Positions 48,655-55,480 of a stretch of 64,000 nt of DNA are shown here, in pieces (positions within the stretch are counted from its first letter, which is position 1; each line of letters begins with the position of its first letter). This DNA is from Streptomyces sp. NBC_01717. GTDB lineage: Bacteria > Actinomycetota > Actinomycetes > Streptomycetales > Streptomycetaceae. Both the position numbers and the translations under genes were made by a program. The notes under the pieces were generated by a model that ran no database searches, was not told the origin of the DNA, and was given only the letters and a program-made list of their open reading frames with translations. The stretch lies in the NCBI RefSeq assembly GCF_036248255.1, contig NZ_CP109178.1:9181001-9245000 (forward strand), in the 5' to 3' direction.

Positions 48655-48782
48655 CCTGGAAACCGACCGCAGGCGCGCGGGCGTTGACTGGTCCGAAGGC
48701 CGACGGCCGCACCCTCCACGAGGGAGCGGTACCTCAGACACACGACCAGGACGGGTCGGCACGCCTGATCGAAGGATCCGAT

Positions 48783-50864
48783 GTGAAACGACATCTCACC
48801 GTCCTCCTCGCCCTCCTGACCGGCTTGCTGGTCGTGGCAGCACCCGCCCACGCCGGGCCGGCGGCCGGCACTGTCGCCGTCACGGCGCCAGCACCTCAGC
48901 AGGTGCTGAGCCCGACGCCGTACATGGGCTGGAACACCTACTACGCGCTGGGTGGCGATCCGACCGAGGCCGAGGTCAAGTCAGTAGCGGACTTCCTGGT
49001 CAGCAGCGGTCTGCGCGACGCCGGCTACCAGTACGTCTGGATCGACGGCAATTGGGCGGCGCCGACCCCACGCAGCTCGGCCGGCGACCTGGTGGCCAAC
49101 CCCGACCAATTTCCGAACGGGCTGAAGCCGCTGGTCGACTACATCCACGCCAAGGGCCTGAAGGCCGGCATCTACACCGACGCCGGCCCGTACATCCCGG
49201 GCAAGTGCGGACTCGGCAGTCACGGTTACTACCAGCGCGACGCGGACCAGTTCGCTGCCTGGGAGTTCGACGCGGTCAAGGTGGACTACCTCTGCGGGAT
49301 CGCCGCGGACCTCGACCCGAAGACCGTCTACACCGAGTTCGCGCAGGCGCTGCGGAACAACGCCAGCGGGCGCCCCATGATCTTCAACCTCTGCAACCCG
49401 GTGACCTCCCCGGACTGGGGCAACTACCCGGATGAGCAGCAGTCGACGTACTCCTGGACCTACGCGCCGGCGATCGCGCAGTCCTGGCGGACGTACACGG
49501 ATGTGGGTTTCGTCGGCGAGATCAAGTTCAAGGACGTGCTGCGGAACTACGACGCGAACGCGCGGCACCCCGAGGCCGCCGGGCCGGGGCACTTCAACGA
49601 CCCGGACTACCTCGGACCTGAGCTGGGGATGACCGACGAGGAGTTCCGTACCCAGATGACGCTCTGGTCGGTGGCGGCCGCGCCGCTGCTGATCGGCAGC
49701 GACGTCCGTAAGCTCAGCCAGACCTCGCTCGGCATTCTCGCGGACCCCGATGTACTCGCGATCAACCAGGACACCGCCGGCATCCAGGCCGTCCGCGTCG
49801 GCCCCGCCGGTACGACGGAGACCTGGGTGAAGCGGCTGGCCAACGGTGACCGTGCCGTGATGCTGCTGAACCGGGGCGACAGCCCAACGACCCTGACCAC
49901 GAAGGCGTCGTCGGTCGGGCTGTCCGGGGATCGGTTCACCCTGAAGAACGCCTGGACCAACCAGGTCACCGAGAGCGCCGGCACCATCAGTGCCGCTGTC
50001 CCGGCCCACGGCGCGGCCCTGTTCCGGGTCGGCCCGGCCACGGGCAAGCCCGGTGTTCCGCACGTCGTCGCCGGCCTGCCGCAGGTGACGCAGGTCGGTG
50101 GCGACGCGGTGCCGGCCGGGGCCGCCCCGCTGGTCGCCGGCGGCGACCAGGCCCGGGTCGAGGTCACCGTCCGCAACGACGGTGCGCAGCCGGTGTTCAC
50201 GCCGCAGGTTGAGCTGACGGTGCCCGCCGACTGGACGGCCCGTCCGCTCGGCAAGGCGCCGAAGCTGCTGCGTTCCAACCATTCCGCGACCTTCGCCTTC
50301 ACGGTGACCCTGCCGGTCACCGCCGCGCCGGGCAGCACTGCGCTGACCGGCAAGACGTCGTACAAGGTGATCGGCAAGGGACGCCTGCGGCAGGAGACGG
50401 CCACGGCGGTAATTGTCGCACCGGCAGCGCCGGACGGCGACGTCGTACTGTCGCACCACAAGTGGATCAGCGCCACCAGCGGGTGGATGAGCCCGACGGT
50501 CGACCTGAGCGTCGGTGGCTCGTCACCGATCAGCATGCTCGGCCAGGTCCACCCGACCGGTATCGGGGTCGCCTCACCCTCCGCGGTCCGCTACTACCTC
50601 GGCGACAAGTGCAGCCGGCTGACCGCGACCGTCGGCATCGACGACGCGGTGCGCAACGTCGGCCCGGACGGCGGCACGTCGACCTTCCAGGTGATCGGTG
50701 ACGGCCGGGTGCTGTTCGACAGCGGTGTGCTGACTCGCGACGACACCCGCCAGGCCGACATCGATCTGACTGGCGTCCGCGTGCTCGACCTGGTGGTCGG
50801 CGACGGCGGCGACGGCGGCTACAACGACCGCGCCGACTGGGCCGGTCTGAACGCCACCTGCTGA
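48783..50864 (+). CDS. Secreted GH27 alpha-galactosidase with C-terminal NPCBM-like domain
   Basis: A 693-residue exported glycosidase. The signal peptide (VKRHLTVLLALLTGLLVVAAPAHA) is followed by a GH27 barrel: TPYMGWNTYYALGG, nucleophile Asp in FDAVKVDYLCG, acid/base Asp in HFNDPDYLG, and the antiparallel domain around NRGDSPTTLTTKASSVGL. A linker domain (NEW3-like, VEVTVRNDGAQPVFTPQVELTVP) and a C-terminal NPCBM domain (CSRLTATVGIDDAVRNVGPDGGTSTFQVIGDG) follow. It releases terminal alpha-galactose from plant oligo- or polysaccharides. The start is GTG 48783 with AAGGAT upstream. A promoter and tandem hairpins frame it as a monocistronic unit. Confidence 0.93.
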   Translation: MKRHLTVLLALLTGLLVVAAPAHAGPAAGTVAVTAPAPQQVLSPTPYMGWNTYYALGGDPTEAEVKSVADFLVSSGLRDAGYQYVWIDGNWAAPTPRSSAGDLVANPDQFPNGLKPLVDYIHAKGLKAGIYTDAGPYIPGKCGLGSHGYYQRDADQFAAWEFDAVKVDYLCGIAADLDPKTVYTEFAQALRNNASGRPMIFNLCNPVTSPDWGNYPDEQQSTYSWTYAPAIAQSWRTYTDVGFVGEIKFKDVLRNYDANARHPEAAGPGHFNDPDYLGPELGMTDEEFRTQMTLWSVAAAPLLIGSDVRKLSQTSLGILADPDVLAINQDTAGIQAVRVGPAGTTETWVKRLANGDRAVMLLNRGDSPTTLTTKASSVGLSGDRFTLKNAWTNQVTESAGTISAAVPAHGAALFRVGPATGKPGVPHVVAGLPQVTQVGGDAVPAGAAPLVAGGDQARVEVTVRNDGAQPVFTPQVELTVPADWTARPLGKAPKLLRSNHSATFAFTVTLPVTAAPGSTALTGKTSYKVIGKGRLRQETATAVIVAPAAPDGDVVLSHHKWISATSGWMSPTVDLSVGGSSPISMLGQVHPTGIGVASPSAVRYYLGDKCSRLTATVGIDDAVRNVGPDGGTSTFQVIGDGRVLFDSGVLTRDDTRQADIDLTGVRVLDLVVGDGGDGGYNDRADWAGLNATC

Positions 50865-51734: not shown

Positions 51735-52030
51735 AGACGGCGGGGAACGCATCTGCCTGATCACCACGGTCACCGAGCCGGACTCTGCGGCCGCCGCCGA
51801 ACTGGCCTCCGCCTACCACTCCGGAGATGGGAGGAGGAAACTGCAAACGCCAGCTGAAGACCGTCCTACGCGGCCCGGGGAAGGTCCTGCGGTCCAAGAG
51901 TCCGGACCTGGTCCACCAGGAGATCTGGGCCTACCTGCCGGTCCACTACGCGATCAACTCCCTGATCTGCCAGGCCGCGACCGGAGCCGACAAAGACCCC
52001 CGGACCGCATCAGCTTCCTCAGGACCCAGC
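51735..52030 (+). pseudogene. IS4-type transposase C-terminal remnant
   Basis: ERICLITTVTEPDSAAAAELASAYHSG, then in a new frame QLKTVLRGPGKVLRSKSPDLVHQEIWAYLPVHYAINSLICQAATGAD, then DRISFLRT in a third. This is the end of an IS4-family DDE transposase. It finishes inside the sigma factor gene that it truncates on the opposite strand. Confidence 0.85.
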
Positions 52031-52530
52031 CGCCTGCTGATCCAGGCCCGACCACACGCAGAGCTCGACGACGTCGCGTTCGTGGCGCGGCAGCCGAGCC
52101 AACGCCCGGTGGATTTCCGACATGCGACGCTCGTCGTCGACCAGGACGGCGACGCGGTCCGCGTGGTCGCCCACCGGCTCGGCATGCGAGACGAGCCGGC
52201 GCAGCAACGCCTCGGCCCGCCTCAGCCGCCGCCTGGTGTTCGACAGCAGGCGGTCGGCGATGCCCAGCAGCCACGGCAGGGCCGAGTCTCGGTCCAACAC
52301 CGTCTCCGATCGCCGACGCCAGGCGTGCAAGAACACGGTCGACGTGAGGTCTTCAGCTTCGGACCAGTCGGCCGTGCGCCGGAACAGGTGGTTGTAGACG
52401 GTCTTCCCATCCCATGACGGTCGAACATCCGACCGAACGCCTCCCGGTCGCCGTCGACGGCCCTCGCCCACAGCTCTCGGTCAGATATCCCTCCGGCCGG
52501 TACGGCGGGACCAGCATCGTTCAGTTCCAT
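52019..52530 (-). pseudogene. ECF RNA polymerase sigma factor, frameshifted and 3'-truncated
   Basis: The N-terminus from ATG 52530 reads DRELWARAVDGDREAFGRMFDRHG, sigma region 2.1. After an out-of-frame step the other frame gives VYNHLFRRTADWSEAEDLTSTVFLHAWRRRSETV (regions 2.2-2.4), the linker, and IHRALARLPRHERDVVELCVWSGLDQQAAG (start of region 4). At the shift the coding strand has ATGGG twice in a row; removing one copy restores the frame exactly. Region 4's HTH is missing where the IS4 remnant joins. It lies divergent from rpoA. Confidence 0.85.
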
Positions 52531-52772
52531 GCTCTATACGTGTCCGGCAACCGGCCGAAGGTTCCCGCTGAGCCAGCTCCGCTTTGACGGACGGATCTGG
52601 CCCTGCTGTGAAGACACGTCTTCAGTCGATATGTCATCACTCGAGTCCATTTGCATGCTTCGCCTGTCCCCTGGCGGTGTCGGGCGGTGCGGCCTCTTGT
52701 GAGGTCGTATTGCCGATACCGTTGGGTGTCTACGGCGTCAAATAGCGGGCGCCGAAATCTGGAGGCACCACC

Positions 52773-53795
52773 ATGCTGATTGCTCAGCGTCCTTCGTTGA
52801 CCGAAGAGGTTGTCGACGAGTTCCGCTCCCGGTTCGTCATTGAGCCGTTGGAGCCGGGCTTCGGTTACACCCTCGGTAACTCTCTCCGTCGTACGCTCCT
52901 GTCCTCGATCCCGGGTGCTGCGGTTACCAGCGTCCGTGTCGACGGTGTCCTGCACGAGTTCACCACGGTGCCGGGCGTCAAGGAGGACGTCACCGACCTC
53001 ATCCTCAACATCAAGCAGCTGGATCTCTCCTCGGAGCACGACGAGCCGGTCGTGATGTACCTGCGCAAGCAGGGTCCCGGTCTGGTGACCGCTGCTGACA
53101 TCGCCCCGCCGGCCGGTGTCGAGGTCCACAACCCGGACCTGGTCCTGGCCACGCTGAACAGCAAGGGCAAGCTGGAGATGGAGCTGACCGTCGAGCGCGG
53201 TCGCGGCTACGTCTCCGCCGTCCAGAACAAGCAGGCGGGCCAGGAGATCGGCCGTATCCCGGTCGACTCCATCTACTCGCCGGTGCTCAAGGTCACGTAC
53301 AAGGTCGAGGCGACCCGTGTCGAGCAGCGCACCGACTTCGACAAGCTGATCGTCGACGTCGAGACCAAGCAGGCCATGCGTCCCCGTGACGCCATGGCGT
53401 CGGCCGGTAAGACCCTGGTCGAGCTGTTCGGTCTGGCGCGCGAGCTCAACATCGATGCCGAGGGCATCGACATGGGCCCGTCCCCGACGGACACCGCTCT
53501 CGCTGCCGATCTGGCGCTGCCGATCGAGGAGCTCGAGCTCACGGTCCGTTCGTACAACTGCCTCAAGCGCGAGGGTGTCCACACAGTCGGTGAGCTCGTC
53601 GCCCGCTCCGAGGCCGACCTGCTCGACATCCGCAACTTCGGTGCGAAGTCGATCGACGAGGTCAAGGCGAAGCTGGCCGGCATGGGCATGGGCCTCAAGG
53701 ACAGCCCGCCCGGATTCGACCCGACCGCCGCTGCCGACGCCTTCGGCGCCGACGACGACGCCGACGCGGGCTTCGTCGAGACCGAACAGTACTGA
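52773..53795 (+). CDS. rpoA: DNA-directed RNA polymerase alpha subunit, stand-alone copy
   Basis: A complete 340-residue alpha subunit. The N-terminal assembly domain includes [22 protein letters not shown] and [14 protein letters not shown]. The C-terminal domain [43 protein letters not shown] keeps the DNA- and activator-contact residues, and the acidic tail ends FVETEQY as in Streptomyces. CTGGAGGCACC precedes ATG 52773. The usual neighbours (rpsM, rpsK, rpsD upstream; rplQ downstream) are all absent: it stands between a broken sigma factor and a SnoaL gene. Streptomyces keeps rpoA in the ribosomal operon, so this is probably a second copy. It looks intact and functional. Confidence 0.95.
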
Positions 53796-54101
53796 ACGCT
53801 GCGCCAGGTCGCGCGGAGCCGGGGGGCGCCTCCCGGACCGCACGGCCAGTCAGGCAAACGGCCACATTACGGCAGCTCAGATGCCCTGCCAGTCATATCC
53901 GTTGTTGTGCGGCGACCACTACGGGGGTGTCGAGCCGGCGATCGGGTCGATGGTCGGGCTCGCGCGTTTCTCGTTTCGCGGGTCGTTTTTGTGCGCAGTG
54001 TGTGTTCTGAGCTGAGGTTTTCTCAGTTGTAGTGGTTCGTGCTTGGTGCTGATGGTGCTGCGAGTAATTGTCAATTCCTGTGGATCGGTGCTGCCGCCTG
54101 G
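53796..54101. other. Intergenic downstream of rpoA
   Basis: About 300 bases between the convergent rpoA and SnoaL genes, locally less GC-rich (GTTTCTCGTTTCGCGGGTCG and the T-rich part around 54010). No rplQ or other gene is present. No perfect terminator stem was found by eye. Confidence 0.5.
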
Positions 54102-54476
54102 TTATGCGCTGAGGTGTTCGTGGAGCATCTGCCAGGTTCCGGCGTTGTTGACGAGCACGTTGGTGCCGCGGCCGCTTCCTGATCGCGGCTGGCTGTCGAT
54201 GGTTCCGGTCCAGGTGAACCGGTAGCGGCATATCGCGTGGTCATCGCTGTGGGCGATCCACTCCAGGTCGTCGATCTGGTAGATCTCGTCGCGGATGGTG
54301 GCGAAGGTCTTGGCGATGGCGGAGAGGATGGCTTCGCGGCCGCGATGCGATCCGTCGGAGAACCAGTAGACGGCATCGGGAGCGATCAGCGGGACGAGCT
54401 GGGTGATGTCGTGGCTGTTGGTGGCCTGCTCGTAGGCGCGGATGAACTCGGTGAGCGGGGCAGTGGGTTGGGGCAT
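54102..54476 (-). CDS. SnoaL-like / NTF2-fold protein
   Basis: A 124-residue cone-shaped alpha+beta protein: LTEFIRAYEQATNSHDITQLVPLIAPDAVYWFSDGSHRGREAILSAIAKTFATIRDEIYQIDDLEWIAHSDDHAICRYRFTWTG. Members include polyketide cyclases, hydrolases and ligand binders, so the role is open. ATG 54476 has AAAAGGAC upstream. The preceding gene has the same leader element and orientation, 75 bases away, so the two are probably one transcription unit. Confidence 0.85.
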   Translation of the reverse strand: MPQPTAPLTEFIRAYEQATNSHDITQLVPLIAPDAVYWFSDGSHRGREAILSAIAKTFATIRDEIYQIDDLEWIAHSDDHAICRYRFTWTGTIDSQPRSGSGRGTNVLVNNAGTWQMLHEHLSA

Positions 54477-54551: not shown

Positions 54552-54962
54552 TCAAGAATCGAGCACGGCGGCGACGGCCTCGATCTCGACGAGTTGGTCC
54601 TTGTAGCCGAGCACGGTGACGCCCATCGAGGTGCTGGGGACGTCATGGTCAGCGAACGAGTCCCGGACTGCTTCCCAGGCAGCCACCAGGTCCTCTCGCC
54701 GGGCCGACGCGACGAGAACCCTTGTACTGATGACGTCCTGGAGCGACGCACCTGAGCTAGCGAGGGCGGCCTGCATGTTCTCGATGGCCTTCATTGCCTG
54801 ACCCGCGTAGTCACCGATCGCTGCCGTGGAGCCGTCATCGTTCAACGGACACGCCCCGGCGAGGAAGATCAGGCGTGACTCGGCGGGGGCCGTAGCCGCG
54901 TAGGCATACTCGGCGACGTCGGACAGGAAGGCAGAGCGGATCAACGTGATGGCACGAGCCAT
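54552..54962 (-). CDS. RidA-family protein
   Basis: A 136-residue RidA-like protein: SRLIFLAGACPLNDDGSTAAIGDYAGQAMKAIENMQAALASSGASLQDVISTRVLVAS, ending VTVLGYKDQLVEIEAVAAVL. The deaminase Arg position is in the STRVLVAS strand. ATG 54962 is used, about 14 bases after AAAAGG; ATG 54983 is less likely. It heads a two-gene unit with the SnoaL-like gene. It is only distantly similar to the RidA at 31.9 kb. Confidence 0.87.
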   Translation of the reverse strand: MARAITLIRSAFLSDVAEYAYAATAPAESRLIFLAGACPLNDDGSTAAIGDYAGQAMKAIENMQAALASSGASLQDVISTRVLVASARREDLVAAWEAVRDSFADHDVPSTSMGVTVLGYKDQLVEIEAVAAVLDS

Positions 54963-55079
54963 AGTCGGCTGGTCCTTTTCCATCGGGTGCTGAGCTCGGA
55001 CATCCTGCCAACGCCCGTTGGTTCCCGCCTTCCCTTTTCGTAGCCGTCCCCACGCGCAGCGCCGTCACTTCTGCTCGAC

Positions 55080-55480
55080 AATCACGAGCCGAGTGATGAC
55101 CAACTGACTCCGGAACCCGTCGACAAACGCTGTTCCCAGAGATCGACGAAGCCAACCTGACTGCTGCGCGAACCCACGGCATCGTCGCCGCGCTGACCAA
55201 CGCTGACGTGATGACCTTCGCGGACAAGGCGTATCAAGGCGCCGGCGGTTCCGTGCGTATCCCGTTCAGGCGGCACCGCTCCCGGCCGAAGCTGTCGCGC
55301 CGGCAGAAGGCCGTGAACAAGGCCCACGCCCGGATCGGCTGCCGCGGCGAACGCGCCGTCGCCACCCTCAAGACCTGGAAAATCCTGACCAAGCTGCGCT
55401 GCAGCCCGTCCCGGACGACCGCAATGGTCCAGGCCGTCCTCGTTCTCCACCACGTCGAAAACTCGGCCTACCAAGGATGA
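55080..55480 (+). pseudogene. IS5-type transposase C-terminal remnant
   Basis: From about 55140 the frame reads IDEANLTAARTHGIVAALTNADVMTFADKAYQGAGGSVRIPFRRH, then KAVNKAHARIGCRGERAVATLKTWKILTKLRCSPSRTTAMVQAVLVLHHVE and stops at 55478-55480. It is the C-terminal half of an IS5-group transposase, undamaged in frame. Its stop overlaps the first codon of the truncated tpg (ATGA). It is the same type as the remnant at 29.8-30.1 kb. Confidence 0.88.

Follow-up and report, generated by a model that had tools for sequence, protein, structure and literature searches.

Identity and surroundings of the window gene

The DNA that was analysed, hereafter the window, is a stretch of 64,000 nucleotides (G000:C1:9181001-9245000) from a Streptomyces genome of 10.2 Mb in three contigs (G000). 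It contains an rpoA gene at 52773..53795 on the forward strand, an intact ORF of 340 amino acids with an ATG start, at a distance of about 99 kb from the end of contig C1 (9.33 Mb). PF01193, PF01000 and PF03118, which represent the dimerisation, insert and C-terminal domains, all matched this single full-length ORF above the Pfam cut-offs, as expected from the original prediction of a complete stand-alone rpoA outside the ribosomal operon. The C-terminal DNA-binding domain (PF03118, residues 245-302) is encoded at 53505..53678 (+) and carries the paralog-type substitutions I269V and S271T. Among solved structures, the best match to the protein over its full length is the native alpha of Streptomyces (chain 7vpd_A, among other entries; E 4e-215), which we take to be from S. 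coelicolor.

The gene is not located between rpsD and rplQ, and its flanks were described correctly from the sequence. An apparently truncated sigma factor ORF lies on one side (52019..52471, minus strand; Sigma70_r2, E 1.9e-9) as a neighbour outside the rpoA unit; its region 4 match was below the cut-off and covered profile positions 3-30 of 54. On the other side are genes for a SnoaL/DUF4440 protein (54102..54476, minus strand; Pfam) and a RidA-family protein (54552..54983, minus strand; Pfam), the latter an addition to the predicted neighbours, and a DDE transposase fragment (55112..55480, plus strand) that matches PF13359 from profile position 58 of 158. An alpha-galactosidase with an NPCBM domain is encoded at 48684-50864 (+) of the window.

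In the following, "native" denotes the rpoA of the ribosomal operon, "extra" any additional rpoA outside it, and rpoA2 and alpha2 the paralog lineage and its product. When we searched the genome itself, three full-length rpoA genes were found, and neither of the other two is identical to the window copy. The copy between rpsD and rplQ, for which a search had been proposed, is the native gene at G000:C1:4043896-4044915 (-); it is preceded at a distance of 109 bp by rpsD (Pfam Ribosomal_S4) and followed, after an Rfam L17 leader (L008:7733-7788), by rplQ (Ribosomal_L17). The third gene is at G000:C2:643818-644822 (-) on the 799-kb contig C2. Sequence alignment revealed that 53796..53905 (+), immediately behind the window gene, is common to the C2 copy and to the plasmid copies H3 and H4.

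A leader carried with the gene

For comparison we assembled 69 full-length extras from 62 genomes and 67 natives, to which five plasmid copies and the two extras of G000 were then added. Alignment showed that the 92 nucleotides before the window gene (52681..52772, plus strand; fold z-score -4.3) are homologous to the native rpsD-rpoA intergenic region. This leader is common to the plasmid copies, and the type associated with the extra lineage is the GTGTCTACGGCGTCACATAG-type. Since the conserved leader starts right where the native rpsD ends, the copied unit seems to have been the leader together with rpoA.

Two stem-loops are predicted in the leader. A 14-bp stem-loop at 52683..52714 (+) corresponds, by predicted fold and sequence, to the hairpin that follows rpsD in native leaders. 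The other, at 52733..52754 (+), has the loop AAATAGCG, is positioned just upstream of the ribosome site and is common to native leaders; its loop in the natives and in many extras reads A(A/C)AUAGYG. Covariation of the latter was examined in 50 conveniently referenced leaders (28 of the 67 natives and 22 of the 76 extras). In these leaders 95% of cells pair, and four of the seven pairs show double-sided changes; the 22 double-sided cells compare with 6.6 in shuffles, a number reached in 0 of 500. The count of further pair types was no higher than in shuffles, and 14 of 45 distinct rows do not form the outermost pair. By a simple search the stem-loop is absent from 21 of the 76 extras. A GGAGG-type ribosome site persists in most extras. 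The stem-loops may function as RNA elements or as sites on the DNA. No Rfam family matched the window leader at E values up to 1, and the native intergenic region with the covarying stem-loop (L008:8917-9025) had no Rfam match at the gathering threshold.

Mosaic structure of the window gene

The window gene differs from its own native, encoded in the ribosomal operon, at 41 nucleotides and 9 amino acids. The differences quoted in the original prediction are real and belong to these nine (V84D/V85L, and L306M/A307G in GMGMGLKD), but the description of them as scattered needs to be corrected, because they are spread unevenly and none lies within 53082-53492. This tract of 411 nt (53082..53492, plus strand) aligns with the native without any difference and is inferred to be a gene-conversion tract; the longest identical run of polymorphic sites between the two genes was not reached in 1000 shuffles. 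The dS value between them was 0.585 for codons 2-30, 0.009 for codons 95-245 and 0.197 for the C-terminal domain. Over codons 95-245 dN was 0, with A241T just outside on alignment columns. Four substitutions fall in residues 54-85.

Based on these comparisons of sequence, the leader, the first codons and the C-terminal domain of the window gene belong to a separate paralog lineage and its middle to its own native. The gene is therefore a mosaic whose middle follows the host. Over the middle of the assembly domain it hardly differs from the host's native, and the differences that persist are found mainly in the leader, the first codons, the C-terminal domain and the tail. A pseudogene is excluded, as the frame is intact and the dN/dS of the lineage is about 0.1 in the C-terminal domain.

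Distribution in Streptomyces and related genera

A protein search of 392 Streptomyces genomes, in which about five candidates were scored per genome, gave more than one rpoA match in 86 genomes besides G000. After removal of false second matches (G025, G060, G075, G115, G198, G234 and G375), a real second rpoA was counted in 79 genomes and G000, that is 80 of 392, a hand count and a lower bound. For 17 of the 80 the second copy was deduced from duplicated fragments, with an assembly break or gap inside rpoA. One single contig (G350:C1) holds two rpoA as four half genes at four places, most likely an assembly error within the identical middle. The frequency of extras rises with genome size: 0 of 39 genomes below 7 Mb, 2 of 89 at 7-8 Mb, 14 of 115 at 8-9 Mb, 24 of 80 at 9-10 Mb and 40 of 69 at 10 Mb or more. 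Among Streptomycetaceae outside the genus, 11 of 73 genomes have a second copy, some as duplicated fragments (hand count). In a class sample of 265 genomes from outside the genus, none of the same family and with at most seven candidates scored per genome, no clear second full-length rpoA was found; nine had more than one match, and the drafts G436, G458 and G478 are ambiguous.

Extras are also found on plasmids: 20 Streptomyces plasmid records have an rpoA that spans 80% or more of the protein, and in 19 of these the identity is at least 95%. The map position was determined for 32 extras on long contigs with a central native, from which rotated-looking contigs and drafts had been removed by hand: 21 map to the outer fifths and 3 to the intervening parts; the other 8 are in the chromosome core, which counts against the best explanation given below. 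In G254 two identical extras with identical 6-kb flanks occupy mirror positions, as in terminal inverted repeats.

When we compared the flanks, 35 of 76 loci shared at least 300 bp of collinear sequence with some other locus. In the largest sharing group, of 14 loci, the common upstream sequence measures 0.4-0.9 kb for most pairs and about 5.5 kb for one. The flank lengths include leader sequence, because masking covered just the 20 bp before the gene. A conserved operon or island around the extras was rejected, as the other 41 loci have no shared collinear flank, with the proviso that short genes are missed by ORF calling. A phage origin was also rejected: tblastn against 50,697 phage records gave 23 matches, all below 60% identity and several resembling host DNA. 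No relative was found in a scan of viral contigs.

At two plasmid loci (L004:9594-12552 and L039:5875-9119) the extra rpoA is downstream of a gene for a single-stranded DNA-binding protein, with MerR and helix-turn-helix genes before it. A small divergent gene (L074:5350-5727, minus strand), with homologues in 13 of 76 loci, is in most cases 0.4-0.65 kb ahead of the extra rpoA; its product has a weak match to the CarD/TRCF RNA-polymerase-interaction domain (E 2e-4, just under the cut-off) and is possibly a polymerase-binding partner beside one extra sub-lineage.

An old lineage with a probably renewed middle

Trees of the gene ends separated natives from extras far better than trees of the middle. 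With the first 143 rows, the native/extra label changed 17 times on the ends and 59 times on the middle, compared with a mean of 47.5 for shuffled labels on the ends. In the full set of 160 rows (86 extras and 74 natives, including ten extras from seven genomes of other genera and the natives of these, none dropped) the label changed 4 times on leader plus ends, 20 times when only the ends were used and 64 times on the middle; shuffled labels averaged close to 53 changes. As the ends need 20 changes rather than 4 without the leader, the clean split between natives and extras rests largely on the leader. In the tree of leader plus ends, 80 of 86 extras including the window copy form one supported set (97), and the rows nearest the window copy are the plasmid copies H3, H1 and H4. 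Earlier trees had omitted six extras with native-like, odd or decayed leaders (two of G175; G236, G237, G242 and G382). One of the earlier trees was also constrained to keep its 70 extras, all except two, in a single group (G255 and one G388 copy were omitted from this test), and the likelihood exceeded that of the unconstrained search (AU p 0.9).

The start codon also marks part of the lineage. All 67 natives start with ATG, whereas 56 of the 69 fetched extras start with GTG and 13 with ATG. GTG is the mark of the larger extra sub-lineage; the window copy belongs to the lineage and yet starts with ATG, so GTG does not define rpoA2 as a whole.

We then compared each extra with its own native and with other natives (68 pairs, 60-nt bins; the three extras of G142 are absent because that genome has no whole native copy). 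Over alignment columns 121-240 the extras differ by 0.8-3.2% from their own native and by 3.0-9.1% from others, while beyond column 300 they are equally distant from both; in the first 20 codons the values are 7.6% and 9.0%. The dS of the middle was 0.078 to the own native and 0.238 to other natives. In 49 of 68 pairs no native matched the middle of the extra better than its own, and for the ends this held in 25. Mantel tests on 50 genomes showed that the middle of the extras follows the middle of the own native (r 0.54) more than the ends of the extras (r 0.17). Against the conversion reading we counted the 19 of 68 extras for which another native is closer in the middle. The longest-run test was passed by 48 of 68 extras against their own native, but also by 20 of 68 against a random other native, so its signal partly reflects uneven conservation and the test is supporting evidence only.

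For the middle of the ten extras from other genera, the own native ranks first of 74 natives in six cases and second in one (G712). It ranks 4th, 13th and 18th for G676, G685c and G685a, respectively, indicating little or no conversion. G685, of another Streptomycetaceae genus, has four rpoA (on C131, C245, C287 and C316), and those on C287 and C131 show little sign of conversion in the middle. Based on these results, repeated gene conversion of the extras by the native of each host, in the direction from native to extra, is likely, and conversion of the middle appears to mask the age of the lineage, making an old paralog look recent.

Selection on the extra copies

The dN/dS analysis covered natives (67), extras with a GTG start (55) and window-like extras selected by hand (8); G242 and G382 are not in these sets. 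In the C-terminal domain dN/dS was 0.022 for natives, 0.09 for GTG-start extras and 0.10 for window-like extras, and selection on this domain is thus 4-5 times weaker in the extras. The tail of the extras is loose, with values of 0.28-0.29 against 0.017 in natives. Since dN/dS of the extras is low but above that of the natives, the extras are kept, though more loosely. In the C-terminal domain dS was 0.30-0.33 for extras and 0.34 for natives; the extra lineage is about as diverged as the natives and so has lasted. The claim of divergence under selection rather than recent copying is therefore borne out as regards purifying selection and age, but the gene is a mosaic and not a single diverged duplicate.

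Length is 337-348 amino acids in 67 of the 69 fetched extras. The DNA-contact residues that had been noted in the window protein are present, as seven C-terminal domain positions, which match the DNA contacts of E. coli alpha, are invariant in all 76 extras. The commonest lineage marks in the core of this domain are I269V (60 of 76 extras, 1 of 67 natives) and A307G (36 of 76 and 0 of 67).

Interpretation of the extra rpoA

We suggest that the window gene is a member of an old Streptomycetaceae rpoA2 lineage, whose middle is renewed by conversion from the native and which would provide a second, stand-alone source of working alpha; we put the probability of this reading at about 0.6. Other readings need to be weighed against it. 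A very recent duplicate or an assembly artefact of the native could account for the identical 411-nt tract, and the 17 genomes with a break or gap inside rpoA fit with an artefact. It is nevertheless highly improbable and was rejected, since the ends are diverged (dS to the own native of 0.585 in codons 2-30 and 0.197 in the C-terminal domain), leader and flanks differ from those of the native, and the same lineage occurs in other genomes and on plasmids. A somewhat unlikely but more serious alternative is that the extras are near-neutral passengers of plasmids and chromosome arms with no role of their own, remaining intact through repair by native conversion and through the harm that a broken alpha would cause. 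The 41 of 76 loci without a common 300-bp collinear flank, the weaker selection on extras than on natives, a frequency that tracks genome size like accessory DNA, a decayed relic in G234 (76% over 53 amino acids) and an internal stop in the G242 extra are all consistent with passengers. Such genes would hardly be expected to show clear purifying selection outside the converted middle too (C-terminal domain dN/dS about 0.1), to retain a GGAGG-type ribosome site and a GTG start in most cases, or to persist as a lineage with a C-terminal domain dS of 0.30-0.33, compared with 0.34 in natives.

The retained ends might also point to a specialised alternative alpha, in which the C-terminal domain, the tail and the leader are selected against conversion and an alpha2 polymerase reads promoters or activators differently. 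The ratio of own-native to other-native divergence is lowest in columns 121-240 (0.27-0.45), reaches about 0.7 in columns 241-300 and approaches 1 beyond column 300 (0.96-0.99); in the first 120 columns it is no more than 0.5-0.84, so the 3' end is the best shielded from conversion. The high frequency of I269V and A307G in extras and their near absence from natives, and a tail rebuilt with indels, agree with specialisation. However, conversion should for mechanical reasons be less frequent near the edges of any homologous block, the seven tested DNA-contact positions are unchanged throughout the extras, and selection on the extras is looser, not tighter. We consider specialisation unlikely.

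Under the favoured reading of an old lineage renewed by its hosts, rpoA2 would have arisen as a duplicate from the ribosomal-protein operon that brought the rpsD-rpoA intergenic leader along, but neither rpsD nor rplQ; it is now found on chromosome arms, chromosome cores and plasmids. Homologous recombination with the native would repeatedly overwrite the middle of the assembly domain, so that alpha2 probably stays compatible with the beta and beta-prime of its host. Made from its own transcription unit and thus uncoupled from ribosomal proteins, alpha2 would dimerise with itself and with the native alpha, and may provide functional alpha under conditions in which the ribosomal operon is down-regulated. 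Mixed or alternative holoenzymes with alpha2 may form, and the altered C-terminal domain and tail would change promoter responses subtly at most.

Paired rpoA genes have been described before. In a survey of 1055 genomes, S. avermitilis MA-4680 was among the few with two rpoA, and the case was called fairly recent (Mukhamedyarov et al. 2011, PMC3294249). Its second gene is likewise outside the ribosomal operon and is very probably a member of the window lineage, which we consider old and family-wide and able to look recent because of conversion; the consulted part of the account (PMC3294249) has no mention of a lineage, a leader, the start codon, plasmid copies or gene conversion. Literature searched mostly outside subscription journals gave no description of the wider rpoA2 lineage beyond this mention of S. 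avermitilis. Francisella also has two rpoA, the second encoded elsewhere, and both alphas enter one polymerase; according to the same source, both copies are fast-evolving and pair efficiently only as a heterodimer (PMC3294249). Because the middle of the assembly part is nearly host-identical in the window lineage, homodimers and mixed dimers would probably both form here, unlike in Francisella. The Chloroflexus pair is an older duplicate with assembly regions that lack drastic change, as in the window lineage, but the part of the survey that treats it describes no mosaic signature or mobility (PMC3294249).

Implications for Streptomyces

Gene conversion making an old paralog appear new has a clear natural case here, which calls for caution in rpoA-based phylogeny and in short-read assembly. 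Genes for the RNA polymerase core are commonly regarded as present once and at a fixed place, whereas rpoA2 is a core polymerase gene that is mobile, plasmid-borne and mosaic in about one fifth of the sampled Streptomyces. In a bolder and rather doubtful extension, rpoA2 would be an old and mobile gene for a second alpha; the host's native would keep renewing its assembly half, and selection would keep its leader, start and DNA-binding half apart. Large genomes would then have two classes of RNA polymerase and an alpha supply or promoter response independent of ribosome synthesis. If alpha2 is made, antibiotic producers may hold several forms of the polymerase.
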